DNA of 40,908 nt, taken from IMG/VR virus record IMGVR_UViG_3300012355_000001, positions 1 through 40,908 of that record; one strand, given 5' to 3'. This document shows positions 11,434-25,382 of the stretch, piece after piece (positions within the stretch are counted from its first letter, which is position 1; each line of letters opens with the position of its first letter). Source of the DNA: a virus. The notes under the pieces are model-generated. The model searched no databases. It saw nothing but the letters and a program-made list of their open reading frames with translations, and was not told the DNA's origin. A program made the translations under genes and the position numbers.

Positions 11434-11783
11434 AGCGCGTCCGTCCCGGGCAGCGTCTTCTGCGCCTTCACGCGGCGCACGCCCTCGTAGGCCTCGTCGC
11501 TGAGCTTGTCGATCGCCTTCTTCAGGTCCTTGACCTTGTTGTTCTGCAGGCGCCGGATCGCCGAGTGGTCGAGCAGCAGCTTTCGCAGCTCGATGTTCTT
11601 CTGCCCGAGCATCTCGCCGGCCTTCGCGCGCTCCTCGACCGTGAGTTCCTCGACGTGGACCGGGCCCGCCTCGTCGTGCTCGATGCCCGAGCGGCCGCGA
11701 TCCTCCTTCTCCGCCGAGGCGTCGACGGCGTCCTTGAACTTGCTCGAGTCCTTGTTCCGGGGCTTCTTCACCGCGCGTGCCAT
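11430..11783 (-). CDS. Hypothetical highly charged protein
   Basis: A 117-residue protein from ATG 11783, preceded by an AAGGAG ribosome site. The first 35 residues are basic, the middle is acidic, and two charged helices follow (EMLGQKNIELRKLLLDHSAI and a Lys-rich helix near 82-100). It looks like a coiled-coil or nucleic-acid accessory protein. Not recognised. It overlaps the RuvC-like gene by 16 bases, more than the usual four here. Confidence 0.7.
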   Translation of the reverse strand: MARAVKKPRNKDSSKFKDAVDASAEKEDRGRSGIEHDEAGPVHVEELTVEERAKAGEMLGQKNIELRKLLLDHSAIRRLQNNKVKDLKKAIDKLSDEAYEGVRRVKAQKTLPGTDAL

Positions 11784-12376
11784 GCGAGTTCTCCTTGGGC
11801 GCTCGTCGGCGCCGCCTGGGTTGTGGCCCTGTCCGTCCAGCTCGTCGCGATCGCGAGCGCGTCCCACGCGTGCTCGCGAGTGATCGCCGGCGCGCTCTCG
11901 AGCATCGCGGACGCGCCGGGCCAGCGCGTCCGCATCAGCTGCTCGGTCGACTCCTTGCGCTTCGCTTGCGCCTGGCGCGCCAGCTGGGCGCGGAGCTTCG
12001 GCTCGGTCGTCTTCGCCGGCGGCAGCTTCTCGGCGAGCAGCCCGAGCAGCTTGCGCCACTCGCCCGGGTTGCGCGTGACGAGCTCGGCGCCGCGCGCCTT
12101 GCACAGACCGACAAGCAGCGAGAACGAGGCCCAGACCATCGCAGCAGCGAGCGCGCCCTTGGGAAACGCCGGCGCCTCGGTCACGACTACGCCCGGCGCC
12201 TGGACTACGAGCAGCTCGTCGAGGTCGGCGGCGAGCTCGGCCACGCGGTCACGCAGGCGCGCTTCCGGGTCGCTCTTGAAGCAGCCGAGGTCGCGAACGC
12301 GCACGCCGCCGTCGAAGCGCTCGAGCGCGGCGAACCCGCAGTGCGCGGTGCCCGGGTCGATACCGAGGATCCTCAT
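11768..12376 (-). CDS. RuvC-like Holliday junction resolvase
   Basis: A 202-residue protein with the RNase H-fold layout of RuvC. The first strand holds Asp7 in MRILGIDPGT. Glu67 lies in VVVTEAP at the end of a later strand, and a C-terminal helix has Glu168, His169 and Asp172 (REHAWDALAIA). These acidic residues would bind two metals and cut Holliday or branched DNA. It follows the primase-helicase and zinc ribbon, so it likely clears junctions made during replication and ERF-driven annealing before packaging. ATG 12376 is chosen because it directly begins the conserved strand and overlaps the zinc-ribbon stop (ATGA). Confidence 0.87.
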   Translation of the reverse strand: MRILGIDPGTAHCGFAALERFDGGVRVRDLGCFKSDPEARLRDRVAELAADLDELLVVQAPGVVVTEAPAFPKGALAAAMVWASFSLLVGLCKARGAELVTRNPGEWRKLLGLLAEKLPPAKTTEPKLRAQLARQAQAKRKESTEQLMRTRWPGASAMLESAPAITREHAWDALAIATSWTDRATTQAAPTSAQGELAWHAR

Positions 12377-12525
12377 CGGCGCACCGGCGTCGGCGTCGAC
12401 GTGATGGGCGCCGTGCACCAGCGCGAGCAGCGCCAGATCAGCGTCGACGACCCCATCGTGATGCACGGCGCACCGCATGATGGGCATCGCGGTGTCGAGG
12501 TCGGTGGGTGCGGGACGAAGGTCAT
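12373..12525 (-). CDS. 50-residue zinc-ribbon protein
   Basis: A short frame of 50 residues fills the space between the primase-helicase and RuvC-like genes. It carries a zinc-ribbon pattern: CPSCGAPC at residues 14-21 and CSRWC at 33-37, separated by a strand-like stretch. Its ATG overlaps the helicase stop and its own stop overlaps the resolvase start, both as ATGA, so gene order and coupling support it. It could be a DNA-binding or protein-docking ribbon for the replication complex, an inference. Confidence 0.6.
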   Translation of the reverse strand: MTFVPHPPTSTPRCPSCGAPCITMGSSTLIWRCSRWCTAPITSTPTPVRR

Positions 12526-14336
12526 AGCGGCAGTGCCTCCTGCGGATCCTTGCGGCGAGCGCGGTGTGCCCAGTAGGGCAGCGACTCGATCTGCTCCCAG
12601 CTCTCCTCGTTGCCCTTCCGCTGCACGCGGCCGAGCTCGTAGGCCTCGCGGTACGTGCCGAGCGTCTTGTCGAAGATGACCCTCGCCACCAGCGAGTTCG
12701 CGCCGTCGAGCCGGTCCTTCAGCACCGTCATGAACGTCGGTGCGAGGTTCCAGTCCTTGCCGTTGTGCGGCGCCGGCGCGAGCGCGACCGCGTGCGTCGC
12801 GACGCGCGTGATGTGGCTCGACCCGGCGAGCTCGCCCATCGTGGGCACGAGCGACGAGCGCATGCCGTCGGCCTTCTTCAGGTGCACGACCAGCAGCACT
12901 GGCTTGTTCATGCGCATTGCCAGATCGCGCAGTCGCTTCATCACCGCCGTCTGCGCCTTGACCTCATGCTCCTCGTCCTCGACGTCGACGTAGTGCAGGT
13001 GGTCGACGACGACCAGGTCGACGCGGTCCTGCATCGCCACCATGACGCGCTCGGTGTCCTCGAGCGTGAACGACGATCCGCGATAGACCGTGTGCAGGCG
13101 CTGCCCGATCTGCTGCGTCAGATAGCGGTCGACCGCGCCCTCGATGTCGGCGAAGAGCGCATCGAGCTCGCCGCGCATCCAGCGCCCGAACGAGATGACC
13201 TCGCGGATCGTGCCCGGCTCGCGCGCGCTGCGTGCCGCCAGGCCATCCGCGTAGAGCTGGGCGAGCGCGCGGTACTTCAGGCGCCGCTCGATCTCGCTGC
13301 GGTTCGCCTCGAGGAAGAAGCCGAGTACTCGGCGCCCCGCGCGCGCGCCGCGCTCGGCGATCGTCGACGCCAGCTGCGTCTTGCCCGCGCCTGGGCGCGC
13401 GGTGAGCACGACCAGGTCGTTCGGCAGCATCCCGCCGATCGCGTCGTCGAGGAACGCGACGTCGTACGGGATGAGCTTCTTCGCGTCGTCGAGGCGGCGC
13501 TCGCGCTCGCCGGCCAGGCGCTGATCGATGGTCCCGATGTCGATGCCGAGCAGCTCGGGCATCGCCGGCCCGCGCTCGCGCGCCTCGGTCACGAGCTGCT
13601 GCAGCCCCTTCGCCGTGCCGCCGTCCCTGATCCAGTCCGAGACGTCGCCCTTCTCCTCGAGCCCGGGCAGCTCGAGCACGATCACGCTCTTCGCCGCCGT
13701 GCGCAGCGAGGCGACGACGTCGGCGGCGTACTGCCGTCCGGGCTTATCGTTGTCGGGCACGACCACCACATGCCGCCCGGCGAGGATCTCGGCAGCGTGC
13801 TCGCCGACGTACTTCCACCCGTTCGTGCCGCCGGCGCAGCATGTCGCGATGAAACCGATCGAGCGAAGCGAATCGACATCCTTCTCGCCCTCGGCGACGA
13901 ACACCGTGCGCGTCTTGCTCGCCGGGTCGACGAGCTCGGGCAGCCGGTAGAGCACGCGGCGCACGCCCTCGAGGTTCCAGGTCCAGCCGCTCGTGTGATC
14001 TGGCCGGCGCTGCCGGAAGCTCTTCGGCACCATGCGAACGACCTGGAAGAGCAGCTCGCCGCGCTCGTCGTGGTACGAATACTCGGTCGCGATGGTGGGC
14101 TTCGCGGCGTCGCCGGCGGAGTGCGGGAATAGGTCCTTCGCCTCGAGGTGCAGCGCGCGCAGGATCGCGTCGAGCTTGCAGCCGGCCTGGCAGAACAGCA
14201 CGACCTTGCCGTCCTCGCCGCGCGAGATCGCGAGCGACGGCGTGTTGTCCTCGTGAGCAGGGCATCGCGCGACCCACTGGCCGGGCTTCTCCCGCTTCAC
14301 GCCGTCGAGGCGCTGGAGAATCTCGTCGACGGTCAC
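12522..14336 (-). CDS. Bifunctional primase-helicase
   Basis: A 604-residue protein joining primase and ring helicase, similar in layout to T7 gp4. It has a CHC2-like zinc site (Cys25, His28, Cys49, Cys53) and a Toprim core with Glu149 (VFVAEGEKD), Asp195/Asp197 (VVPDNDKPG) and DVSDWI at 231-236. The DnaB/RecA-type motor has Walker A ARPGAGKT (313-320) and Walker B LVVVDHLHY (441-449). It would unwind the fork and lay primers for a host polymerase. The start is GTG 14336, overlapping the initiator stop (GTGA); the ATG-initiated frame further upstream runs through the initiator gene and is not credible. Confidence 0.9.
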   Translation of the reverse strand: MTVDEILQRLDGVKREKPGQWVARCPAHEDNTPSLAISRGEDGKVVLFCQAGCKLDAILRALHLEAKDLFPHSAGDAAKPTIATEYSYHDERGELLFQVVRMVPKSFRQRRPDHTSGWTWNLEGVRRVLYRLPELVDPASKTRTVFVAEGEKDVDSLRSIGFIATCCAGGTNGWKYVGEHAAEILAGRHVVVVPDNDKPGRQYAADVVASLRTAAKSVIVLELPGLEEKGDVSDWIRDGGTAKGLQQLVTEARERGPAMPELLGIDIGTIDQRLAGERERRLDDAKKLIPYDVAFLDDAIGGMLPNDLVVLTARPGAGKTQLASTIAERGARAGRRVLGFFLEANRSEIERRLKYRALAQLYADGLAARSAREPGTIREVISFGRWMRGELDALFADIEGAVDRYLTQQIGQRLHTVYRGSSFTLEDTERVMVAMQDRVDLVVVDHLHYVDVEDEEHEVKAQTAVMKRLRDLAMRMNKPVLLVVHLKKADGMRSSLVPTMGELAGSSHITRVATHAVALAPAPHNGKDWNLAPTFMTVLKDRLDGANSLVARVIFDKTLGTYREAYELGRVQRKGNEESWEQIESLPYWAHRARRKDPQEALPL

Positions 14337-15181
14337 CGAATTCTCCCGGCGGCGTGGTCTTCCATCAGCCTGTCGATGGGCTCGGGCGGGCGCTCGACGG
14401 TGATGTAGTCGCGCCAGCAGCCCATGAACGTCGAGAAGTGCTTCTGGTACTTCGCCTCGCGGTCCTGCACCTGGATGGCGTAGTTCGCCACGGCCACTTT
14501 GAGCGCGGCGTAGTCGCCGGCGGTGCGGATCTGCTTCTCGCACAATGCGAGGCCACGGCTCTTGCCGTCCTTGCGTGGGTAGGCCCGGTAGATGGCCTCG
14601 TAGTCGAAGACGGGCTTCGAGGGAACGAGGCCGAGCTTCAGAATAGGCGGAGCCGGGTCGCCGTGTTCTTGTTCTTGTTCTTGTTCTTGTTCTTGTTCCT
14701 GTTCCGGATCGTCCTTCGCCGAAGGCTTCCCGAAGGGCTTCGTGCAGGCTTCCCGGAAGGCTTTCGCGAAGCCTTCCCCCAAGCCTTCTGTGAAGGCTTT
14801 AAGCGCGTGCCATGACTCGATTTTCAGAGGGCACTCAGGGGTCTCGTCCCACGTCGCCCGCCACGACCGCACCACGTTCGGCGACTCCGGGGCGTTGTGC
14901 TTGGCCCCGTTCGGCAGCCAGACCATGCCGGCCTCACGGTCGACCTTGGCCATGTCCTGGTCCACGATTTCGACCATCGCGGACCAGAAGCCTTCGAATG
15001 GCCAGCGCAGGGCAGCCGCCAGCTCCTCGGGCGTACCGAGGACGATGCCGGGGATCTGCGTGGTGCGCGTGCCAGTGATGAGCCAGACCAGCAGGCTTTG
15101 CCCGTTCGGTGTCGGTCGGCTCAGGCGCCGAACCTTCTCGTCGGCCCACAGGCCCAGGCTGACCTTGCGGTACTTCGCCAC
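14333..15181 (-). CDS. Replication initiator (lambda O-like organisation)
   Basis: A 282-residue protein. The N-terminal domain (about 1-120) is of the phage replisome-organiser type, starting KYRKVSLGLWADEKVRRLS and including the conserved LVWLITGTRTTQIPG segment. This is a winged-helix DNA-binding region. A linker follows with repeated Phe/Gly/Lys units and six Glu-Gln pairs. The C-terminal domain has YRAYPRKDGKS, common at helicase-loading ends of these proteins. It would bind the repeats in its own gene (14721-14799) and bring in the primase-helicase encoded next. The start is GTG 15181, right after the stop of the preceding gene. Confidence is high for the role and moderate for the exact family. 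Confidence 0.8.
   Translation of the reverse strand: MAKYRKVSLGLWADEKVRRLSRPTPNGQSLLVWLITGTRTTQIPGIVLGTPEELAAALRWPFEGFWSAMVEIVDQDMAKVDREAGMVWLPNGAKHNAPESPNVVRSWRATWDETPECPLKIESWHALKAFTEGLGEGFAKAFREACTKPFGKPSAKDDPEQEQEQEQEQEQEHGDPAPPILKLGLVPSKPVFDYEAIYRAYPRKDGKSRGLALCEKQIRTAGDYAALKVAVANYAIQVQDREAKYQKHFSTFMGCWRDYITVERPPEPIDRLMEDHAAGRIR
14665..14706 (-). repeat. Tandem 6-bp repeat, AT-richer tract in initiator gene
   Basis: Five perfect copies of GTTCTT (plus strand) run from 14665 to 14694, followed by GTTCCT and GTTCCG. On the coding strand they give the Glu-Gln repeat. The tract is pyrimidine-only apart from G and clearly richer in A+T than its surroundings. It lies beside the iteron-like repeats, so it may be the easily melted part of the origin. 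Slippage would add or remove pairs of residues without breaking the frame. Confidence 0.85.
14721..14799. other. Candidate replication origin, iteron-like repeats
   Basis: Inside the initiator gene, the 8-mer GAAGGCTT occurs at 14721-14728, 14756-14763 and 14792-14799, spaced 35 and 36 bp. Its reverse complement AAGCCTTC occurs at 14769-14776 and 14781-14788. Near copies lie at 14732 (GAAGGGCTT) and 14746 (AGGCTTC). The cluster is flanked on the downstream coding side by the 6-bp AT-richer tract. In lambda the origin also lies in the middle of gene O as iterons followed by an AT-rich stretch toward gene P. The match is in layout, not in sequence. Confidence 0.55.
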
Positions 15182-15762: not shown

Positions 15763-16110
15763 CTACGCGGCCTCGCCGCCCTTGTGACTAGCCAGGGCCC
15801 GCTCTATCGCTGCTGCGTCGATCTCGAGCGTGATATCGCCGGTTGTCGGATGCGGAGGCAGCTCTTCTTCTTCGGGCCGCGCATCCTTCGCTTCTTCGGT
15901 GGGCATGCGCGCGAAGAACTCAGCGACGCCGCCGGGGATGCCGAGCGCCCTCACGATGGGGTCGAGCCGATCGGTCGTCGGCGCCGAGCTGTCGTGCATC
16001 CAGCCGTGCACGGCCCTGCGACTCACGTCGAGAGCTCGCGCCAAATCGGCCTGGCGCATCTCCACGAACTTCAGCCAGCTCGTCAGGCGCATCCCGAAGG
16101 TCGGTTCCAT
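15763..16110 (-). CDS. XRE-family HTH regulator (repressor or Cro-like)
   Basis: A 115-residue protein with a classic five-helix XRE domain at about residues 8-58; the recognition region is QADLARALDVSRRAVHGWM. An acidic linker and a short strand/helix C-terminus (ITLEIDAAAIERALAS) may dimerise. It is the first gene of the leftward early operon and is next to two 17-bp operators. The leftward promoter -10 (16119-16124) ends only eight bases before its ATG, so the transcript from it would be nearly leaderless. Whether it is the lysogenic repressor or the lytic Cro counterpart cannot be decided from sequence. Confidence 0.85.
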   Translation of the reverse strand: MEPTFGMRLTSWLKFVEMRQADLARALDVSRRAVHGWMHDSSAPTTDRLDPIVRALGIPGGVAEFFARMPTEEAKDARPEEEELPPHPTTGDITLEIDAAAIERALASHKGGEAA

Positions 16111-16118
16111 GGCCGCAT

Positions 16119-16148
16119 ACGTTACGACCGATGTAACATTCAGTGCAA
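16119..16148 (-). promoter_or_regulatory. Leftward early promoter
   Basis: On the minus strand a -35 TTGCAC (16148-16143) and a -10 TAACGT (16124-16119) are 18 bp apart. The -10 overlaps one arm of the operator at 16121-16137, so a bound regulator would block it. It would drive the replication operon. Predicted start of transcription is within a few bases of the ATG at 16110. Confidence 0.5.
16121..16137. promoter_or_regulatory. Operator 1 (GTTAC-N7-GTAAC)
   Basis: Sequence GTTACGACCGATGTAAC, a 17-bp dyad with perfect five-base arms. It overlaps the leftward promoter -10 and is 35 bp (start to start) from operator 2. Confidence 0.85.
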
Positions 16149-16155
16149 GCCTTTC

Positions 16156-16172
16156 GTTACACCAGTCGTAAC
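16156..16172. promoter_or_regulatory. Operator 2 (GTTAC-N7-GTAAC)
   Basis: Sequence GTTACACCAGTCGTAAC. It lies 25 bases before the ATG of the rightward regulator gene. TAACAT at its right edge could act as a -10 for that gene, but no good -35 is present, so that promoter may need activation. Confidence 0.85.
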
Positions 16173-16196
16173 ATCCTCTGCGCGAGCATAGGAGCC

Positions 16197-16640
16197 ATGG
16201 GCCGAGATGGCCGACGCTGGTACTTGAAGCCAGCCTCTCGGGAGACCGTGAAGCAGCTGATCACCGCCGAGGAGGGTAGCTATCGGGGGGTTGCGCAGCG
16301 GTTGCGCCTCGGCATCTCCTACGCGAGCCTGCACCGAATTGCGGCAGGCGTAACTAAGTCATCCTGGGTGATTCCTGACTTGTTGCGCTACCTGAACCTC
16401 GTTCCGTCAGAACACATCGACCTCGAGCTCGGCGAGGAACTCACCGACGAGCAGATCGCCTGGCTCAAGCTGCTGGCCGACCTCAAAGGTCGCTGGCAAG
16501 GACCCCGCGGACATCGAGACCCTCATTCGGAAAATCGCCGGCATGCCCGCCTCGAAGAGCTCCCAGTAACCCCGCGAGACGACCCAGGGATCTCCACCAT
16601 GCTGGGTATCGGACACCCACCTTCGTTACAGACAGTGTAA
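16197..16640 (+). CDS. Rightward HTH regulator with probable frame disruption
   Basis: The gene starts at ATG 16197 behind TAGGAG. The first about 97 residues read well: a Cro/CI-like HTH (YRGVAQRLRLGISYASLHRI, about 29-48), then an acidic helix ending LTDEQIAWLKLLADLK. After that the open frame gives an Arg/His/Pro-rich run to 16640 (147 residues in all) that looks non-coding. If one A of the AAA at 16485-16487 is skipped, the frame instead reads VAGKDPADIETLIRKIAGMP and stops at TAA 16567-16569, giving 123 residues. The second version is far more protein-like. It may be a sequence error, a true +1 shift or a mutation. It is the likely partner of the opposing XRE regulator in the lysogeny switch. 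Confidence 0.72.
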   Translation: MGRDGRRWYLKPASRETVKQLITAEEGSYRGVAQRLRLGISYASLHRIAAGVTKSSWVIPDLLRYLNLVPSEHIDLELGEELTDEQIAWLKLLADLKGRWQGPRGHRDPHSENRRHARLEELPVTPRDDPGISTMLGIGHPPSLQTV

Positions 16641-16641
16641 C
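16625..16641. promoter_or_regulatory. Operator 3 (GTTAC-N7-GTAAC)
   Basis: Sequence GTTACAGACAGTGTAAC. It is 35 bp (start to start) before operator 4 and lies just upstream of the rightward promoter -35. It repeats the geometry of operators 1 and 2. Confidence 0.85.
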
Positions 16642-16649
16642 GTTTTGCG

Positions 16650-16678
16650 TTGACGTCGCGTTACACTTACCGTAACGT
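16650..16678 (+). promoter_or_regulatory. Rightward early promoter
   Basis: A -35 TTGACG (16650-16655) and a -10 TAACGT (16673-16678) are 17 bp apart. Operator 4 fills most of the spacer and the first part of the -10. The same -10 word is used by the leftward promoter. It would drive the rightward operon from about 16685 to int at 25382. Confidence 0.6.
16660..16676. promoter_or_regulatory. Operator 4 (GTTAC-N7-GTAAC)
   Basis: Sequence GTTACACTTACCGTAAC. It overlaps the spacer and -10 of the rightward promoter, so binding there should shut it off. Confidence 0.85.
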
Positions 16679-16795
16679 CTGCCCCATCATCGGGCAGTCG
16701 GATGTTCAGCTCAACACGGATTCGTGAACGCTTCGGCGCACGGCCAGAGGGCGGACTCCGGCGGCTGGTGGAGACAGCTGACCGAAGGAGGGGAC

Positions 16796-16846
16796 ATGCC
16801 CGTGTGCCTGGGGATGCTGAAGGAGCTGTTCGGGGGTGACCGTTGA
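16796..16846 (+). CDS. Possible 16-residue leader peptide
   Basis: The frame MPVCLGMLKELFGGDR follows a strong AAGGAGGGG ribosome site. Its TGA (16844-16846) overlaps the TTG start of the next gene (16843), giving TTGA coupling. It may serve to deliver ribosomes to that weak TTG start. A different 45-codon frame (16702-16839) covers the same stretch but has a poor ribosome site. Confidence 0.35.
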   Translation: MPVCLGMLKELFGGDR

Positions 16847-17349
16847 CCGCGTACCCGGTGCGCGCGCTCCGGATGGAGCGCGCGGACAAGCGCTTCGCCG
16901 CGCTGGCGCGCGACGTCGGCCTGGTGCTCGAGCAGCACTCCTATCCGCGCGTCAACGGTGACGACCGGAGCGAGCTGGAGAAGGTGCTGTTCGACTTCCT
17001 CTACGGGAGCCGCGGCGCCGCCGGCGAGCTGGAGAAACGGCTCAACGGCACGGCCGCGCCGCTGGTCTCGGAGGAGGGCACGCTCGACTCGTACGACTGC
17101 CTCGCTGTGGCGCACGAGCTGCGGCGCAAGCGGGCCGCGACGGGAGCGCTGGTCATCGCGACCGACGCCAACGACCAGCTGTCGATCGGCCTGGCCGCCG
17201 ACGAGGGCGCGCTGATGGACGTGCTCGGCAACGAGATCATCGAGTCGCTCGAGGGCGTGCTGAAGAAACGAGGGTGGGCCGCACCCGAGATCAAGGACGT
17301 CGGCATGGACTTCACCGTCCCCGGCGACGACAAGGAGCGTGCGTCATGA
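16843..17349 (+). CDS. First substantial protein of the rightward operon, unknown function
   Basis: A 168-residue protein that most likely starts at TTG 16843, overlapping the leader stop; ATG 16873 is the alternative. It is a mixed alpha/beta protein with charged helices at the N-terminus and a strand region LVIATDANDQLSIGL (about 103-117). A long helix and a closing strand (MDFTVPG) follow. No motif was recognised. Being first after the rightward promoter, it should be strongly expressed early after infection. Confidence 0.72.
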   Translation: MTAYPVRALRMERADKRFAALARDVGLVLEQHSYPRVNGDDRSELEKVLFDFLYGSRGAAGELEKRLNGTAAPLVSEEGTLDSYDCLAVAHELRRKRAATGALVIATDANDQLSIGLAADEGALMDVLGNEIIESLEGVLKKRGWAAPEIKDVGMDFTVPGDDKERAS

Positions 17350-17642
17350 CGCTGAAGATGTGGACCGATCGAGCGCATGTCCTCTACGACATGGTCGGGA
17401 GCGCTCGCCAGCGCGTCGCCCTCCAAGCGACGCCAATCGCGGACTCGATCGCCGAGGGCCACGAGGTGTGGCGCAACGACGTCAAGCGCTACCGCTGGGC
17501 GCGAGACTGCGAGCGTGTCGCCTGGGTGATGTGGCACCTCGAGGTCTACGGCGCCTTCCCTGAGTTCTGGAACGCCGCGCCGGTGGCCGCGCCCGCCGTG
17601 TCCATCACGCCCGCCGCCGGCACCGTCGAGGTGTCGCCGTGA
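17346..17642 (+). CDS. Small hypothetical protein
   Basis: A 98-residue protein from ATG 17346 (ATGA overlap). It is Trp-rich and helical in its first 75 residues (RYRWARDCERVAWVMWHLEV), followed by a Pro/Ala/Val tail. It has no signal peptide or zinc site. Not recognised. Confidence 0.68.
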   Translation: MTLKMWTDRAHVLYDMVGSARQRVALQATPIADSIAEGHEVWRNDVKRYRWARDCERVAWVMWHLEVYGAFPEFWNAAPVAAPAVSITPAAGTVEVSP

Positions 17643-17995
17643 CCGGTCGTGGCGTGGCCATCATCCCGGTCATCGCGCCGTCGCGCGAGCAGCAGCTCGA
17701 GCGCGAGGTGAACGAGCTTCACGCCAAGCTCGAGCTGAAGCAGGCGCAGCTCGAGGACGCGTGCGCCCAGCTCACCGCGAACGGCGCGCCGGCGATCCCC
17801 GACCAGGTGCCGATGTGCATCGGGGGCGGGCTGGTCGGCGAGGCGGACGGCTGGCTGTGGCTGATGCGCGGCGGCGTGCTGCGCCGGCTGTGGCTCGCGA
17901 CGGCGGAGGAGACGCGGCAGGCGCAGGCGGTGCGCGAGGTGCTCGAGCGCGAGCAGGCGGAGCGAGACGCGGTCCGCCGGAGGTTCGCGTCGTGA
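17639..17995 (+). CDS. Coiled-coil hypothetical protein
   Basis: A 118-residue protein starting at GTG 17639 (GTGA overlap). A coiled coil covers about residues 15-45 (EQQLEREVNELHAKLELKQA). A Gly/Trp-rich turn with one Cys follows, then a second charged helix to the end. The two helices could pack back to back. Function unknown. Confidence 0.66.
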   Translation: MTGRGVAIIPVIAPSREQQLEREVNELHAKLELKQAQLEDACAQLTANGAPAIPDQVPMCIGGGLVGEADGWLWLMRGGVLRRLWLATAEETRQAQAVREVLEREQAERDAVRRRFAS

Positions 17996-18348
17996 GCTAC
18001 CACGCGGTCCTCGATGCCGAGGAGCTACGGCGCGCGCTCGACACTGCGCCCATCGAGGAGGTGCTGGCCGCGCTGGTGCGGCGCGGTGCCCGGCTCCTGG
18101 CGCTCGCCGAGGCGGCGGCGCACGAGGCCTCGGTCGAGCAGCTCGAGGGCCGCGTGGCCGAGCTCGAGCGCCGGTGTGCGGCGAGCTGCATCGAGGTCCG
18201 CAAGCTGAGCGACGCGATGCACGTGCTGGCGCCGGCCAGCAACCTGGACTTCCAGCTCGCCGGGTACTCGCGCGCCGCGGCGACGTTCGACCGGCTGACC
18301 GCGTTCCGGCTGCGGTGCCTGCGGAAGCAGGAGGTCGGCCATGCGTGA
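17992..18348 (+). CDS. Helical hypothetical protein
   Basis: A 118-residue protein starting at GTG 17992 (GTGA overlap). It has long Ala/Leu/Glu/Arg helices, with heptads at about 45-70 (SVEQLEGRVAELERRC). It probably dimerises. No domain was recognised. Its length and style are close to the preceding coiled-coil gene, but I see no clear sequence duplication. Confidence 0.66.
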   Translation: MSYHAVLDAEELRRALDTAPIEEVLAALVRRGARLLALAEAAAHEASVEQLEGRVAELERRCAASCIEVRKLSDAMHVLAPASNLDFQLAGYSRAAATFDRLTAFRLRCLRKQEVGHA

Positions 18349-18865
18349 GCCGAATTCGAGTCCGATTTCGGGTTTGCTCTCCGAGGCGGATCTGGCGGAA
18401 ATCGAGAAGCGCGCGGCGGCGGCGACGCCGGGGCCGTGGGTGGAGGGGTACGTCACCGGGCGCTGCCATCTCGACCACGAGCATACGCGTGGTGAGTGTC
18501 GATACGACTACCGACTCGAGACCAGCGCGCGCGGGCAGATTGCCAGTCTCGCGTTGACCCGCGACGTCCTCACCACCACCAAGTACGGGCTTCCCTCGGC
18601 TGCGGACGTCGCATTCATCGCGGCCGCGCGCACGGACGTCCCCGCGCTGGCCGCCCACGTGCGCGTGCTCGAGCGAAGCCGCGACGGCTGGCGCGCTGAC
18701 GCGGAGCGCGAGGCTGGGCACGCCGCCTACTGGAGGGAACGCATGGCCGCCATGGTCGGCGCGGTGCGAGCGGCCATGAGGTGCACCTGCGGCGAGCCGG
18801 TGTGCGAGGCCGTGGAGGACGTCCAACTGCTGCTGGCGTTGCGCGAGGACGCGCTCCATGCGTAG
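18341..18865 (+). CDS. Ea22-like early phage protein
   Basis: A 174-residue protein of the widespread phage early-gene type: an N-terminal LAEIEKRAAAATPGPW motif (about 18-33), a variable His/Cys-containing centre, then DVAFIAAARTDVPALAAHV (about 90-108) leading into a helix. The C-terminus adds a CTCGEPVC pair. The family is common in early regions of lambdoid and related phages, but its molecular role is not established. It overlaps its upstream and downstream genes by eight bases each. Confidence 0.72.
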   Translation: MREPNSSPISGLLSEADLAEIEKRAAAATPGPWVEGYVTGRCHLDHEHTRGECRYDYRLETSARGQIASLALTRDVLTTTKYGLPSAADVAFIAAARTDVPALAAHVRVLERSRDGWRADAEREAGHAAYWRERMAAMVGAVRAAMRCTCGEPVCEAVEDVQLLLALREDALHA

Positions 18866-19070
18866 CCGCCCGCAGCTCCGCGTCGTGCGCCCGACCGATC
18901 CCCTGCCGCCGCTCGAGCACGCACCGCTGATCGCGCCGCGCCTGGTCGTCGTCCGGCCGCAGCCGAAGCTGCGCTGGATCGACAGCGTCGCCGCCGGGCT
19001 CCTCATCTCCGGATCGCTCCTGGCAGGTGCGGTCCTCATCTCTCTGGCCATGGGCTGGATTCGACTCTGA
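18858..19070 (+). CDS. Small single-pass membrane protein
   Basis: A 70-residue protein. The first 42 residues are Pro/Arg-rich and should be cytoplasmic, and one membrane helix follows (about 46-66, AAGLLISGSLLAGAVLISLA). There is no cleavage site. It overlaps the Ea22-like gene by eight bases. Its role is unknown; early phage micro-membrane proteins often alter host envelope functions. Confidence 0.66.
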   Translation: MRSRPQLRVVRPTDPLPPLEHAPLIAPRLVVVRPQPKLRWIDSVAAGLLISGSLLAGAVLISLAMGWIRL

Positions 19071-19084
19071 CGGAGGACGGAACC

Positions 19085-20080
<996 letters not shown>

Positions 20081-20082
20081 CC

Positions 20083-20364
20083 GTGTCGCACCCGTTCTGC
20101 TACCGCTGCCGTCACGACGTCCTGCCCGGGCGCGGGTGCCTCTGCGCCCAGCTGCAGGCGGACTACGACGAGGCGGTGGCAGAGCGGCAGCGCGAGCGCC
20201 TGGCGGAAGAGAGGTACTGGGCCGAGATGGACGCGTCGATGGCCGCCGAGCGGCGCCGCGTCGATGAGGACGCCGCGGCCGACAGGGAGTTCGAGGCGAG
20301 CCGGGCGCGCGCCCGGGAGAACGCCCAGGCGCATGACGACCTGGTGTGGGGAGACGACCGATGA
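20083..20364 (+). CDS. Small zinc-site and coiled-coil protein
   Basis: A 93-residue protein starting at GTG 20083, just after the previous stop. Residues about 6-22 hold a likely metal site (CYRCRH, CLC), and the rest is a long, highly charged helix (Glu, Arg, Ala). It would look like a small finger on a stalk. It overlaps the ERF gene by four bases and may assist it, an inference from adjacency. Confidence 0.68.
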   Translation: MSHPFCYRCRHDVLPGRGCLCAQLQADYDEAVAERQRERLAEERYWAEMDASMAAERRRVDEDAAADREFEASRARARENAQAHDDLVWGDDR

Positions 20365-21095
20365 CCGAGACATCGCAGAGCGTGGGCGCGCTGGCCGCGG
20401 CGCTGGCCAAGGCGCAGGCGGAGATCGAGGGCGCGTCCAAGGACCGCGTGAACCCGCACTTCAAGGCGTCCTATGCCACGCTCGCATCCGTCTGGGACGC
20501 GTGCCGCAGCGCGCTCGCCAAGAACGGCCTCGCGGTGGTGCAGTCACCGGTCTCGGAAGGCTCGACGGTGACTGTCTACACGACGATCATGCACGCCTCG
20601 GGCGAGTGGATGCGCAGCGCGCTCTCCGCGTCGGCCCGCGACGGCACGCCGCAGAGCATTGGGTCCGCCATCACGTACCTGCGCCGCTACTCGCTCGCTG
20701 CGATGGTAGGCGTGGCGCCGGAGGACGACGATGGTAATGACGCGCAGCCGCCGCGCTTCGACCAGGCGCCGCCGCGCCAGCAGCAGCCTCCACCGGCGCG
20801 CCAGCCGAACGGGCCTGCCCTGCCCGACTTCGACGCGGTGAACGACCGCCTGCACAAGGTGACCGGGTATGGGGGCGACGAGCACAAGACCGCGCGGAAG
20901 ACCTGGTGGGCGAAGGCGCTGGGCTACGTGAACCCTGGCCCGCAGTGGTCGCCTTTCACCCCCTATGGCCAGGCCGACGTCGCTGCGAAGCGCAAGGTCG
21001 TGCAGCTGCTCGAGCAGCTCGAGCTCGCCACCGCGGCGGCGCCGCCGATGGCGGATGGGCCGCCGCCGCGCAACGACGACGACATCCCGTTCTAG
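20361..21095 (+). CDS. erf: ERF-family single-strand annealing protein
   Basis: A 244-residue recombinase of the ERF superfamily (P22 Erf type). The N-terminal domain has the family signature NPHFKASYATLASVWDACR (about 34-52), then the GLAVVQSPVSEG strand, and SIGSAITYLRRYSLAAMVG (about 99-117). A Gln/Pro-rich linker (about 130-155) leads to a helical tail. The last residues DDDIPF match the acidic tip of SSB proteins, a known docking peptide for host repair enzymes. It would anneal complementary single strands and support recombination or circularisation in early infection. ATG overlaps the preceding gene (ATGA). Confidence 0.86.
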   Translation: MTETSQSVGALAAALAKAQAEIEGASKDRVNPHFKASYATLASVWDACRSALAKNGLAVVQSPVSEGSTVTVYTTIMHASGEWMRSALSASARDGTPQSIGSAITYLRRYSLAAMVGVAPEDDDGNDAQPPRFDQAPPRQQQPPPARQPNGPALPDFDAVNDRLHKVTGYGGDEHKTARKTWWAKALGYVNPGPQWSPFTPYGQADVAAKRKVVQLLEQLELATAAAPPMADGPPPRNDDDIPF

Positions 21096-21108
21096 ACCCC
21101 TTTGGTCC

Positions 21109-21150
21109 CGCCGGCGGCGCGCGTCTCCTCCTCAGCGTGCGCCGCCGGCG
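21109..21150 (+). terminator. Perfect 12-bp hairpin between erf and parB-like gene
   Basis: CGCCGGCGGCGC (21109-21120) pairs exactly with GCGCCGCCGGCG (21139-21150) across an 18-base loop. A short T4 run follows at 21160-21163. It could be a partial terminator that lowers expression of the distal operon. Because it lies just before a ParB-like gene, it could also be a binding site. Confidence 0.5.
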
Positions 21151-21176
21151 AGGGCCTCTTTTCCCCGGAGGATCCG

Positions 21177-22802
21177 ATGGACGCCAGCACCGAGACCGAG
21201 ACGAGCGACGAGCTGTTCATGCACATCCCCCTCGGCCAGCTCACGGCCTCGAGGTTCCAGCCGGCGACGCGCCGGCCCGACGCCGATCTCATCGAGAGCG
21301 TGCGCCAGCACGGCGTCGTCACGCCCGGCCTGGCGCGGCCGACGCCGGACGGCCCGACCGCGTACGAGGTGGTCTTCGGCCACTGCCGCTGGCAGGCCGC
21401 CGCGGCCGTCAAGCTCCCCACGATGCCCTTCCTCGTGCGCGAGCTTGACGACGTCACGGCGCTCGAGCTGCAGCTGGTCGAGAACCTGCGCCGCTCGGAC
21501 CTCCACCCGATGGACGAGGCCGAGGGCTACCACCAGCTGCACGAGGAGCACGGCCAGGCGGTCGAGCAGATCGCGGCCCGGGTGGGCAAGTCGAAGGCCT
21601 ACGTCTACGCGCGGCTGAAGCTGCTCGCGCTACAGACCGAGGGCCGCGAGGCGTTCCGCGCCGGCGAGCTCGACGCCTCCGTCGCGCTCTACCTGGCGCG
21701 CGTGCCCGGCTCGCTGCAGGCGATGGCGCTGAAGGCGCTGCGCGGGCGCGCGGAGCAGGGCGACCGCGTGTCGGCGCGCACGGCGGCCTGGCTCCTGCAG
21801 CATCAGTTCATGCTGCAGCTCGACCAGGCGCCGTTCCAGACGAGCGACGCCGAGCTGGTACATCAGGCCGGCGCGTGCACCGACTGCACGAAGCGGACGG
21901 GCAACCAGCGCGAGCTCTTCGCCGACGTCGAGAGCGACGACGTCTGCACCGACCCGATCTGCTATCGGAGGAAGGTCGACGCGGTATGGCAGCTCCGGAC
22001 GAAGGACAAGAGCATGCCCGTGCTCCCAGCCAAAGAGGCCAAGGCGCTGTGGCCGCACAGCAGCAGCCACATGACCTACCAGCGCGAGTGGATCGACCTG
22101 GCGGAGAGCTGCTACGACGCCGGAGGGAAGCCCTACAAGAAGGCCCTCGCCAAGGCGATGCCGGAGGTGACCCTCGCCCGCGATCCCGACGGCGGCGTGC
22201 ACGAGCTCGTGAAGCGCGCGGCCGCCGAGAAGGCGCTGAAGGACCTCGGCCTCACCAAGAAGGTGTCGCCGGCAAGCTCGAGCTCGAGCAGTTCGTCATC
22301 CTCCAAGAATGACAAGGAGGCGCGCGCGGCCGCGGCGAAGGCGCGCGCGGCCGAGGAGCTCAACAAGATGGTGGCTGCCTCGGTCGTGGCGGAGATCGCC
22401 GAGGTCGCCGAGAGGGCCTCGCCCACCGCCGCCCAGCTGTTCGCCCTCGTGGTCGCGCTCGAAGGCAACCTCTACAGCGGCCCGCAGCGCGCGCTCGACC
22501 GGCGAGGCCTGAAGCGTGACGCGCTGAAGAAGATGAACGAGCGTGGCCTCTGGGCGCTGCTCGTCGAGTACCTCGCCGCCGAGCTCCTCGAGGACGTCTT
22601 CTCCGGCCAGCAGCCGAAGGACCTGCTCGCACTGGCGAAGGCCTTCAAGGTCGACGTGCTTGCGCTCGAGAAGAAGGCGAAGGCCGAACTCGAGGCCTCC
22701 GCCAAGATGCCCGCCGACCTGAAGGCGAAGCCGGTCAAGGGCAAGAAGCTCAGCGCCCAGGCGCTGAAGCACGGCGCGCTCGGGCCCGAGGGCAAGCGGT
22801 GA
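21177..22802 (+). CDS. ParB/RepB/Spo0J-like protein
   Basis: A 541-residue protein with a CGGAGG ribosome site and ATG at 21177. The N-terminus has ParB motifs: IPLGQLTASRFQP (about 16-28), the nucleotide-binding box GHCRWQAA (about 72-79), and LVENLRRSDLHPMDEAEGY (about 102-120). An HTH follows (EQIAARVGKSKAYVYARLKL). Past that are a cysteine cluster (CTDC, VCTDPICY, near 235-265), a Ser tract and a long charged C-terminal region. It is nearly twice the length of chromosomal ParB. No ParA partner was seen. It may be a transcription or DNA-organising factor rather than a partition protein. Confidence 0.85.
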   Translation: MDASTETETSDELFMHIPLGQLTASRFQPATRRPDADLIESVRQHGVVTPGLARPTPDGPTAYEVVFGHCRWQAAAAVKLPTMPFLVRELDDVTALELQLVENLRRSDLHPMDEAEGYHQLHEEHGQAVEQIAARVGKSKAYVYARLKLLALQTEGREAFRAGELDASVALYLARVPGSLQAMALKALRGRAEQGDRVSARTAAWLLQHQFMLQLDQAPFQTSDAELVHQAGACTDCTKRTGNQRELFADVESDDVCTDPICYRRKVDAVWQLRTKDKSMPVLPAKEAKALWPHSSSHMTYQREWIDLAESCYDAGGKPYKKALAKAMPEVTLARDPDGGVHELVKRAAAEKALKDLGLTKKVSPASSSSSSSSSSKNDKEARAAAAKARAAEELNKMVAASVVAEIAEVAERASPTAAQLFALVVALEGNLYSGPQRALDRRGLKRDALKKMNERGLWALLVEYLAAELLEDVFSGQQPKDLLALAKAFKVDVLALEKKAKAELEASAKMPADLKAKPVKGKKLSAQALKHGALGPEGKR

Positions 22803-23134
22803 GCGACCTCAGTGACCTGGTGCGCGATCTGGTGCGCGCCCGCGTGCTCGTCGCAGTGCGCGCGTGCCCGGGCATCACGCCGGCGCGCGCGGCCGCGGTG
22901 GCGCTGTTCAAGGAGGAGGACGCCATCATCGCGCTCGAGCAGCTCGTCGAGCTCGCCCAGGTGGAGGAGGTCGCGCTGCACGACACGACGTCGCTCTGGT
23001 ACCCGGTCGCCTGGTGTGTGACCTGCGGCTGCACCGAGCTGCACGCGTGCGAGGGTGGCTGCTTGTGGAGCGTGCACCCCGGCGAGGACCCGCACGTCGG
23101 TGACTTCGCCGGCGTCTGCTCGAGGTGCGACTGA
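22799..23134 (+). CDS. Small zinc-binding phage protein
   Basis: A 111-residue protein from GTG 22799 (GTGA overlap). A helical N-terminus (about 1-65) with a winged-helix feel (ITPARAAAVALFKEEDAIIA) leads to a Cys/His-rich end: CVTCGCTELHACEGGCLW, then CSRC at the last residues. The CGCT..HAC..GC.W..CS.C pattern is a recurrent phage and plasmid zinc module of unknown function. Confidence 0.72.
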   Translation: MSDLSDLVRDLVRARVLVAVRACPGITPARAAAVALFKEEDAIIALEQLVELAQVEEVALHDTTSLWYPVAWCVTCGCTELHACEGGCLWSVHPGEDPHVGDFAGVCSRCD

Positions 23135-23241
23135 TGCTCGACCTCTTTGCCTACTGGCTCGGCCACCTCCTGGCATGGCTCTTCCCTGGTCTCGCCGGGC
23201 TCGGCGCCGTCGATGCCTGGGCGCCTGGAGACCTGCGATGA
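23134..23241 (+). CDS. 35-residue membrane micro-protein
   Basis: ATG 23134 overlaps the previous stop and its TGA overlaps the next ATG (ATGA). The product is MLDLFAYWLGHLLAWLFPGL followed by a short polar end, one hydrophobic helix. Support comes from double coupling and composition. Function unknown. Confidence 0.55.
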   Translation: MLDLFAYWLGHLLAWLFPGLAGLGAVDAWAPGDLR

Positions 23242-23435
23242 AGTACGACGACACGTCGCGCCACCTCTGGCCGGCGCACCTCGACGCCATCCCGTGCCCG
23301 CGGTGCCAGGAGCGCATGGACGCGCACCTGTGGAGCGTCGTCGACGGCCTGGTCTGCCCGCGCTGGACGCGGCGCCTGGCCCGCCGGCTCGCCGATGCCC
23401 TGGCGCGGCTGTCGACAGTCGTCGGAGGTCAGTGA
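23238..23435 (+). CDS. 65-residue Cys-containing basic protein
   Basis: A 65-residue protein with CPRC (about 20-23) and a single later Cys before an Arg-rich helix (WTRRLARRLADALARL). The zinc site looks incomplete unless His residues at about 15 and 30 take part. Coupled on both sides. Function unknown. Confidence 0.62.
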   Translation: MKYDDTSRHLWPAHLDAIPCPRCQERMDAHLWSVVDGLVCPRWTRRLARRLADALARLSTVVGGQ

Positions 23436-23740
23436 TGCAGATGCGCGGCCAGGCATGGTGCGGGCTGCACGACATCTACTACGGCGAGGCCTTCGGCTGC
23501 GGCTACTGCAACGATGAGCTCCGCCGGGATTTCCGCGCCGCCCGCGCGGAGGTCACGGGCGCGACGGTCCGCGGCGCCTTCCGCGCACTCGCCGAGGTCG
23601 GCTGCGCGGTCCAGCTCGGGCTGCTTGCCGTCCACGTCGTGAGCGGCACGCCCGCCTGGGACGGGCCTGAGCCGGGCGTGCTGGCGCGCTACGGCGACGC
23701 CGAGTACTCGCTCCTGGCCGGGCTCGGTGGGCGGCCATGA
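23435..23740 (+). CDS. Small hypothetical protein with Cys cluster
   Basis: A 101-residue protein starting at ATG 23435, behind GGAGGTC. The N-terminus carries CGLH (about 9-12) and CGYC (about 22-25), a likely zinc site. A basic helix and a hydrophobic stretch follow (VGCAVQLGLLAVHVV). Two residues in there is a second ATG that could also serve. Not recognised. Confidence 0.65.
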   Translation: MQMRGQAWCGLHDIYYGEAFGCGYCNDELRRDFRAARAEVTGATVRGAFRALAEVGCAVQLGLLAVHVVSGTPAWDGPEPGVLARYGDAEYSLLAGLGGRP

Positions 23741-23850
23741 CCGACGCCGAGATGATGCTGGTCTCGCTCCTGGTCTTCCTTGCCGTGCTCCTGGGCTTGG
23801 CCTGCTGGGTAGCCGACCAGCGCGGCATGGCCGAGCAGGAGCGGTGGTGA
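23737..23850 (+). CDS. 37-residue membrane micro-protein
   Basis: ATG 23737 overlaps the preceding stop (ATGA). The product has one strong membrane helix (MLVSLLVFLAVLLGLACWVA) and a charged tail. Holin-like antitoxins and envelope modulators can look like this, but it has no specific motif. Confidence 0.55.
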   Translation: MTDAEMMLVSLLVFLAVLLGLACWVADQRGMAEQERW

Positions 23851-23854
23851 GACC

Positions 23855-24025
23855 GTGAGCTTCCTCGCAGACTGGGGCGCGACCCTCATCTTCGGCGCGT
23901 TCGTCGCCGGGCTGGTCGCGCTGCTCGGCCCGCTCGTCGGCGCCATGGTCTCCGGTGGGTGCGTGTTCGGCGGCTGGCTCATCGCGCGCGCGATCGACCG
24001 CGGGTTCGGGGGCCGCCCGTCGTGA
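23855..24025 (+). CDS. 56-residue membrane micro-protein
   Basis: Starts at GTG 23855, and its TGA overlaps the GTG of the next gene. There are two hydrophobic stretches (LIFGAFVAGLVALLGPLVGA and VFGGWLIARAI), possibly a helical hairpin. Function unknown. It is the third small membrane protein in under a kilobase. Confidence 0.55.
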   Translation: MSFLADWGATLIFGAFVAGLVALLGPLVGAMVSGGCVFGGWLIARAIDRGFGGRPS

Positions 24026-24426
24026 TCGCCCTGGCCCCGAACGTCTTCTACGCCGAGGACGAGCTCGTCACCGGCCTGAGCGTGAGCCGCAAGTGGCTGC
24101 GCCGCACCGTCGGCGGGTTGCGCGCCGGGCGGGCGCGCGTGTACCGTGGCTCCGACGTCCTGGAGAAGATGCAGGTATGCCTCAACGCTTCACCGTCTCG
24201 GTCTACACCCGCTCCGGCTCGCCGTTCTGGTACGCGCGGTGCTACCTCGACGGCGGCGGCGACAAGCCCCTCCGATGGTCCACCGGCGTCCGCCTCGACA
24301 GCGAGGGGGGGAAGCGTGGATCTCGTCGAGTGGCTGAAGCAAGAGCAGAGGCAGAAGCCCGACGCCTTGCCGACGCCGCTCAGCTCGAGACGCAGACCGA
24401 GACGTCCACCACCGTCAACGCCGTAG
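24022..24426 (+). CDS. Excisionase-like HTH protein overlapping int
   Basis: Starts at GTG 24022 (GTGA overlap) and has no stop until 24426, so it overlaps int by 250 bases. The first 50 residues resemble an excisionase or MerR-type winged HTH: FYAEDELVTGLSVSRKWLRR, then GRARVYRGSDVLEKM. The rest is Pro/Ser/Arg-rich and reads like the shadow of the integrase gene. Functionally the N-terminal domain would be the Xis part, which would bind attP and steer Int toward excision. Its location directly before int supports this. The length of the true product is uncertain. Confidence 0.6.
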   Translation: MIALAPNVFYAEDELVTGLSVSRKWLRRTVGGLRAGRARVYRGSDVLEKMQVCLNASPSRSTPAPARRSGTRGATSTAAATSPSDGPPASASTARGGSVDLVEWLKQEQRQKPDALPTPLSSRRRPRRPPPSTP

Positions 24427-25382
24427 CCCGGCGGATGCTCCGGCAGAAGCAGGCAGACCAGCGCCAGCCGCGCGCCGTCGCATCGCTCGCCCACAACCTC
24501 CGCAAGCACGTCGAGCCCTTCTTCGGCCCCGAGCGGGACATCCGCTCGATCCGCCGCCCGGACCTCGAGGCCTTCAAGCGCCACCTGGTCGCGGTGCCGC
24601 TCTCGCCCATCACGGTCAACAACAACCTCACCGCGATCAGGCAGATACTCAAGCACGCCGCGAACGTCGAGGAGCTGCTCGAGGTCCTGCCCCACGTCGC
24701 GAACGTGAAGGCGCCCAAGGGGACGAAGGGGCGCGCGCTCACCGAGGAGCAGGTCGGCGCGCTGCTCGATGCCGTCCAGCCGCGCGAGCTCGAGGCGCAG
24801 CAGTTCCTCGAGTTCATCTCGAACGTGGGCATGCGTAAGACCGAGACCCTGGCCATGAAGTGGGGCTGGATCGACTGGGACGCGGCCATGATGAGGATCC
24901 CGCCCGAGTACCGGAAGGGCGGCGAGGACCGCCGGCGCGTGCCGCTCAATGATGCCGCGCTCGCGATCCTCATCGCGCGCCGCGACCACGGCACGAAGTA
25001 CACGGGGCGGCGCAAGGAGCCGCTGCCGACCGGGCCCGAGAACCGGGTCTGGATCCAGAAGAAGCACGACGTGTCCCGCAACGAGGCGGCGAAGCGCGCC
25101 GGCCTCGGCCGGGTGCGCACGCACGACCTGCGGCATACCTTCGGCTCACTGGCGGTCGCGAACGGCGCGTCGCTCACCGAGGCGCGCGACCTGCTTGGCC
25201 ATCTGACGATGGCGATGGTGAACCACTACCAGCACGCCTACGAGGACCGGCTCAAGGAGGCCGCCCAGCGGGTGCAGATCAGGAGCTCGCGGAGTGTGTC
25301 GGCTGGTGTGTCGGGCGAGGGGTCAAACAGGGCTCAGAACGAGCTGGATCGGGCACGAGCGAAGAAGACCTCTCGACGGTGA
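24177..25382 (+). CDS. int: Tyrosine integrase
   Basis: A 401-residue tyrosine recombinase. The N-terminal arm-binding part (about 1-45) precedes a core-binding domain (about 80-175) with helix QRQPRAVASLAHNLRKHVEP. The catalytic domain has Arg220 (VGMRKTETL), His316 and Arg319 in HDLRH, His342 in LLGHLTM, and nucleophile Tyr351 in NHYQHAY. It would insert the phage at a host attB and, with the excisionase-like protein, remove it. Its 3' end carries two of four TGTGTCGG repeats. ATG 24177 is used as start because it begins the conserved MPQRFTVSVY strand region. Confidence 0.92.
   Translation: MPQRFTVSVYTRSGSPFWYARCYLDGGGDKPLRWSTGVRLDSEGGKRGSRRVAEARAEAEARRLADAAQLETQTETSTTVNAVARRMLRQKQADQRQPRAVASLAHNLRKHVEPFFGPERDIRSIRRPDLEAFKRHLVAVPLSPITVNNNLTAIRQILKHAANVEELLEVLPHVANVKAPKGTKGRALTEEQVGALLDAVQPRELEAQQFLEFISNVGMRKTETLAMKWGWIDWDAAMMRIPPEYRKGGEDRRRVPLNDAALAILIARRDHGTKYTGRRKEPLPTGPENRVWIQKKHDVSRNEAAKRAGLGRVRTHDLRHTFGSLAVANGASLTEARDLLGHLTMAMVNHYQHAYEDRLKEAAQRVQIRSSRSVSAGVSGEGSNRAQNELDRARAKKTSRR
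25295..25314 (+). promoter_or_regulatory. Left pair of Int arm-type repeats (TGTGTCGG)
   Basis: TGTGTCGG occurs at 25295-25302 and 25307-25314, inside the end of int. The same 8-mer appears twice in the same direction on the other side of the int-to-late gap, as expected for arm-type sites flanking an attP core. Confidence 0.6.

Follow-up and report, generated by a model that had tools for sequence, protein, structure and literature searches.

In phage lambda, the operator regions that flank the repressor gene loop, and the CI repressor uses its S24/oligomerisation domain for this looping. Lambda operators are spaced by about 20–24 bp; for OR1 and OR2, the distance is about 24 bp. Rhizobium phage 16-3 carries operators of a 434-like sequence. 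Its C repressor system comprises four of them—oL1, oL2, oR1, and oR2 (PMC12429752)—and N15 and phiKO2 bear three OR and two OL operators (PMC4997575, PMC4488713). For PY54, leaderless cI and cro mRNAs have been shown (PMC4488713). For prophages similar to Sinorhizobium phage phiLM21, a 2025 paper reports that operators were not found (PMC12429752).

Here, we describe a region of an IMG/VR virus record of 40,908 bp—analyzed over its full length and called the window in the following—in which a temperate phage very probably encodes its CI/Cro immunity switch, in a lambda-like, mirror-imaged arrangement. This reading is built on the operator sites and their number, the promoter geometry, the gene order, and the recurrence in 16 other phage contigs; from these, we infer protein binding, the identity of the binder, cooperativity, and repression. 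The CI-like rightward HTH protein, expressed from the divergent OR region, would bind all four operators as a dimer, and two dimers per pair would sandwich the −35 and bury the spacer and the −10. Bound dimers would thereby shut off both PR (leftward: Cro, replication) and PL (rightward: recombination, integration), and Cro—first on the PR transcript—would probably compete for the same operators in lytic growth.

Operator pairs, promoters, and gene order

The word GTTAC-N7-GTAAC occurs in four exact copies, at 16121, 16156, 16625, and 16660, where a dinucleotide model expects ~0.001 (P(≥4) ~6e-14). The first-pass annotation had described these sites as unique to the region, and the exact scan of the entire 40,908-bp record bears this out: the word is found at the four sites only and is, hence, not common elsewhere in the record. 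The copies form two pairs, and the site positions confirm the start-to-start spacing of 35 bp that had been ascribed to both. All four copies of the pentamer GTTAC in the window lie in operators, with 7.6 expected. Outside of the operators, GTTAC is absent and GTAAC occurs twice, with ~15 expected window-wide for both together; this shortage of half-sites might reflect avoidance or codon usage. The elements of the switch are as follows.

15763–16110, minus strand: Cro-like HTH gene (115 aa; HTH_3, PHROG), first in the leftward PR-like operon
16119–16148, minus strand: promoter PR, predicted from sequence; −35 TTGCAC (16148–16143), 18-bp spacer, −10 TAACGT (16124–16119)
16121–16137, no strand: operator 1 (OR proximal), exact match; occupies the PR −35/−10 spacer and overlaps the PR −10
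16156–16172, no strand: operator 2 (OR distal), exact match; immediately upstream of the PR −35
16197–16640, plus strand: short CI-like HTH repressor gene; frame open as sequenced, stop TAA inside operator 3
16625–16641, no strand: operator 3 (OL distal), exact match; immediately upstream of the PL −35
16650–16678, plus strand: promoter PL, predicted likewise; −35 TTGACG (16650–16655), 17-bp spacer, −10 TAACGT (16673–16678)
16660–16676, no strand: operator 4 (OL proximal), exact match; in the PL −35/−10 spacer, gives most of the PL −10
16679–16697, plus strand: inverted repeat CTGCCC-N7-GGGCAG; adjoins the PL −10, might fold into a hairpin in read-through transcripts

Operators 1 and 2 sit in the intergenic region between the divergent HTH genes, and operators 3 and 4 form a second region beyond the repressor gene, ahead of the recombination/integration operon. 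A third operator per region, as lambda has, is not seen in the window, which shows two in each; nor does the window show a further operator near the repressor start, apart from a two-mismatch word at 16338 within the gene. The earlier proposal of a four-operator lysogeny switch—two sites in each region, the repressor gene between them, and outward promoters—finds support in this layout. Its comparison with OR and OL of lambda likewise stands, except that the gene between the regions was taken as a departure from lambda, which it is not because cI also lies between OL and OR.

Both −10 hexamers read TAACGT, i.e., operator sequence plus GT, and their overlap with operators 1 and 4 was correctly called in the first pass (minus strand 16124–16119; plus strand 16673–16678). 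The order within the cassette is operator, −35, and a second operator, which fills the spacer and contributes the −10; one operator pair is, thus, predicted to be one sigma-70 promoter. The 35-bp operator spacing follows from this promoter geometry, as one 17-bp site lies upstream of the −35 and the next inside the 17–18-bp spacer. A distance of 34–35 bp is also one helical turn above that between OR1 and OR2 of lambda, and 45 bp is seen in a Bradyrhizobium phage (see below); it seems fair to infer a side-by-side dimer contact on one helix face. On the strand opposite to PR, the right half of operator 2 contains the word TAACAT, which is a possible −10 of the repressor gene; judged by sequence, the promoter of this gene is weak.

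The two early operons contain the following genes.

11768–12487, minus strand: RuvC-like gene, leftward operon
12522–14543, minus strand: primase-helicase, leftward operon
14333–15181, minus strand: DnaD-like helicase loader, leftward operon
16843–25382, plus strand: rightward PL-like operon, contains Erf-like, ParB-like, and integrase genes
20346–21095, plus strand: Erf-like annealing protein, PL-like operon
21102–22802, plus strand: ParB-like protein, PL-like operon
23955–25382, plus strand: tyrosine integrase, PL-like operon

The replication genes (helicase loader, primase-helicase) hence lie downstream of Cro on the predicted PR transcript. The Cro-like protein matches Pfam HTH_3 (E=4.5e-6) and a PHROG transcriptional repressor family (E=1e-6); its single-sequence structure model (pLDDT 52), like that of the CI-like protein, is too poor for a fold search. 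In the window and in all 16 relatives described below, the Cro ATG is located 5–8 nt past the PR −10 (17/17 phages; the window's ATG at 16110 is at +8), and the Cro mRNA is, therefore, predicted to be leaderless in all 17, in line with PY54.

Relatives with the same cassette and a possible hairpin at the PL start

Two operator pairs around a CI-type (HTH or S24) repressor gene are found in the window and in 16 other phage contigs (L005, L127, L130, L135/L145, L144, L146, L148, L149, L150, L152, L154, and L156–L160). An exact 35-bp double-site scan of IMG/VR returned a single viral contig besides the window, L005, which is a CI/Cro switch with a perfect pair downstream of its S24-type CI and a partly degenerate second pair, also at 35 bp, upstream. 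L127, L129, L130, and L135 stem from a scan with one operator plus TTGAC, L144 and L146 from a protein search with three short repressors as queries, and L149–L160 from the cassette scan. Left out of the count were L151, whose five sites crowd into 200 bp and whose pairs do not enclose a repressor gene, as well as L153 and L155, which appear to be coding repeats.

The 34 pair spacings in the 17 phages are 33 bp (2), 34 bp (18), and 35 bp (14), whereby the search pattern admitted 31–37 bp and so conditions some of these spacings, and as many as three mismatches were tolerated in some second members of pairs. L127, L129/L148, L130, L135, L144, and L146 were retrieved with queries that did not specify the spacing. 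As L144 and L146 came from protein similarity alone and L127, L129, L130, and L135 from a single operator plus TTGAC, the 34–35 bp were not selected for. The −35 and −10 occupy fixed positions in 17/17 PR and 17/17 PL, i.e., in all 34 promoters with the window included.

In the checked relatives that have the window's half-site, near-exact sites are confined to the switch region. Several relatives show or suggest an additional operator that overlaps the start codon of the repressor gene or lies close to it; in L127, L130, L135/L145, and L146, this extra operator lies over the start codon, and its right half encodes a shared Met-Ala-Thr N-terminus. Searched against viral contigs, the two HTH proteins of the window had no relatives, and against isolate phages they gave weak HTH matches or none. 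Acetobacter phage phiAX1 (L141:2797-2885) bears three similar palindromes with 34- and 35-bp spacing upstream of a repressor gene, and a Bradyrhizobium phage shows an operator spacing of 45 bp as judged by eye from the sequence.

A scan of 84,980 species genomes returned two exact 35-bp matches, L126 and L125, both of which were rejected as phage switches, the neighboring genes—judged by eye from translations—being of other kinds. The pair in L126 (3090-3141), a Pseudomonadales MAG, is located upstream of a HigB/HigA-like toxin–antitoxin operon that encodes, again by eye, a HigB-like toxin and an XRE-ImmA-type antitoxin. In L125 (3490-3650), a cluster of GTTAC/GTAAC palindromes follows an FtsK/TraB-like gene in an integrative-element-like region of Nocardiopsis.

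An inverted repeat directly after the PL −10 is also present in L127, L130, L135, L144, L148, L150, L154, L156–L160, and phiLM21, while its sequence differs from phage to phage. The stem has p=0.012 in the window, and the PL set reaches a Fisher value of 1.7e-9 versus 0.81 for the PR set. In most relatives, the 3′ arm covers the Shine–Dalgarno sequence of the first PL gene; the window's hairpin is short and its Shine–Dalgarno sequence weak. Since transcription is expected to start ~6 nt downstream of the −10, the PL mRNA would not include the 5′ arm: the entire hairpin would be present in mRNA that reads through from the repressor gene, and only part of it in PL-initiated mRNA. This suggests, as a working hypothesis, promoter-specific translation of the first PL gene—a logic known from gene e of phage T4. 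Tentatively, the phages might form an undescribed, widespread class, in which an interchangeable operator(−35)operator(−10) cassette serves at PR and PL and PL starts inside a hairpin that bears the Shine–Dalgarno sequence; we hold this broader claim to be possible rather than probable. If true, the read-through mRNA of a lysogen would be silent for the lytic operon, and the PL-initiated mRNA would be translated. A description of the cassette was not found in the open-licence literature searched.

Two GTTRC-N7-GYAAC words 33–35 bp apart with TTGAC between them provide a searchable signature for the switch, its repressor, and both early operons, which is useful in high-GC phages where family searches fail.

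Repressor gene, binding protein, and rival explanations

The intact rightward HTH frame at 16197–16569 of the first-pass annotation does not hold, as its 373 nt are no multiple of 3. Codon-position G+C before 16488 is 0.64/0.42/0.78, and beyond this point it is the frame ending at 16569 that shows a coding-like pattern. A +1 frameshift or an assembly error near 16488 into this latter frame is probable. Programmed shifting would be another possible cause of the phase change (16480–16570). For the CI-like protein of the window, Pfam gives nothing significant (best E=0.24) and PHROG matches are weak (E=0.04–0.09); a single-sequence model with a pLDDT of 44 displays an XRE-type HTH helix pattern at low confidence. 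The assignment of this protein as HTH hence draws on weak family matches together with comparative evidence. It bears the recognition-helix motif SYASLxRI, common to the repressors of L156 and L158. The S24 self-cleavage/oligomerisation domain has no match in the short repressor of the window and is present in that of L005.

Base 6 of the half-site is C in 39/39 half-sites of the seven phages with RxT(I/V)WRW-type CI helices (RxTIWRW class), G in 31/34 half-sites where the helix is of the TKTSISRIE type (five phages), and either A or G in the SYASLxRI class, which comprises the window, L156, and L158. The split of C versus not-C by helix class has p=3e-29, with phage kinship ignored. Base 6 thus tracks the recognition helix of CI, and this favors the rightward HTH protein as the operator binder; Cro may also bind the same operators and could even be their main binder. 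The phages thereby provide a natural repressor/operator set, in which one half-site base follows the recognition helix.

The leftward Cro-like protein is the better-supported HTH of the two, and the rightward frame is disrupted in the window contig, so one might suppose that the leftward protein alone binds and that the rightward gene is either defunct as a pseudogene or serves a different function. We regard this as rather unlikely: the operator base 6 follows the helix class of CI, and the window shares both SYASLxRI and an A/G at base 6 with L156 and L158. An origin of the paired palindromes as some unrelated repeat, arisen by chance or from coding sequence, is virtually out of the question. 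A wide-gap IMG/VR scan (gap 10–30 bp) did return >100 stretches, but most of these are coding repeats of low complexity from AT-rich phages, with spacing in multiples of 3, whereas L005, the sole other viral contig in which two perfect sites lie exactly 35 bp apart, carries a CI/Cro switch. The window's sites moreover sit on promoters, and the promoter geometry in 17 phages contradicts chance repeats.

The flanking of the CI-like repressor gene by two operator regions recalls lambda, and DNA looping by repressor oligomers between pairs ~500 bp apart, as between OL and OR, could be the core mechanism. The first-pass annotation had considered such looping plausible; the comparative data do not support it and leave it only a slim chance. 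In the 17 phages, the inner distance spans 375–1152 bp and shows no helical phase (Rayleigh p ~0.6–0.8), and the short repressors are devoid of the S24 C-terminal domain, while L005 retains S24 yet has the same cassette.

Comparison with known systems

In common with lambda, the window has divergent repressor and Cro-like HTH genes with the repressor gene between OL and OR, a PR that leads to Cro and replication genes, a PL that leads to recombination and integration genes, and one operator in the −35/−10 spacer that overlaps the −10. In contrast to lambda, it has two sites per region instead of three, spaced by 35 bp instead of about 20–24 bp—the distal site therefore clears the −35, unlike in lambda. 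Further differences are the short repressor without S24 domain and that Cro, not cI, is predicted to be leaderless.

Like phage 16-3, the window has two operators on each side of the repressor gene, but these are GTTAC-N7-GTAAC and not 434-like ACAA/TTGT. A homologous C repressor was not found: tblastn of the window repressor gave no match to phage records at E≤0.01. Those relatives that have five sites resemble N15 and phiKO2, with the extra site near the repressor start being similar to OR3. In N15 and phiKO2, as in the window, the repressor lacks the features by which lambda CI cleaves itself. N15, phiKO2, and PY54 (immB) differ by 16-bp TA-N10-TA operators, repA under OL, and a plasmid prophage.

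Sinorhizobium phage phiLM21 shares the divergent Cro-like and repressor genes and the hairpin at the PL start, and differs in its half-site, GTAGC, and in its repressor, which is longer and akin to the S24-type CI found in L005. Its candidate OL pair, GTAGC-N7-GCTAC (L140:4219-4270), has sites 35 bp apart with a −35 between them; the cassette thus offers candidate operators for phiLM21. Taken together, the cassette is a variant of the lambda-type switch—with its recurrence, the predicted leaderless Cro, and the hairpin at the PL start among the newer features.
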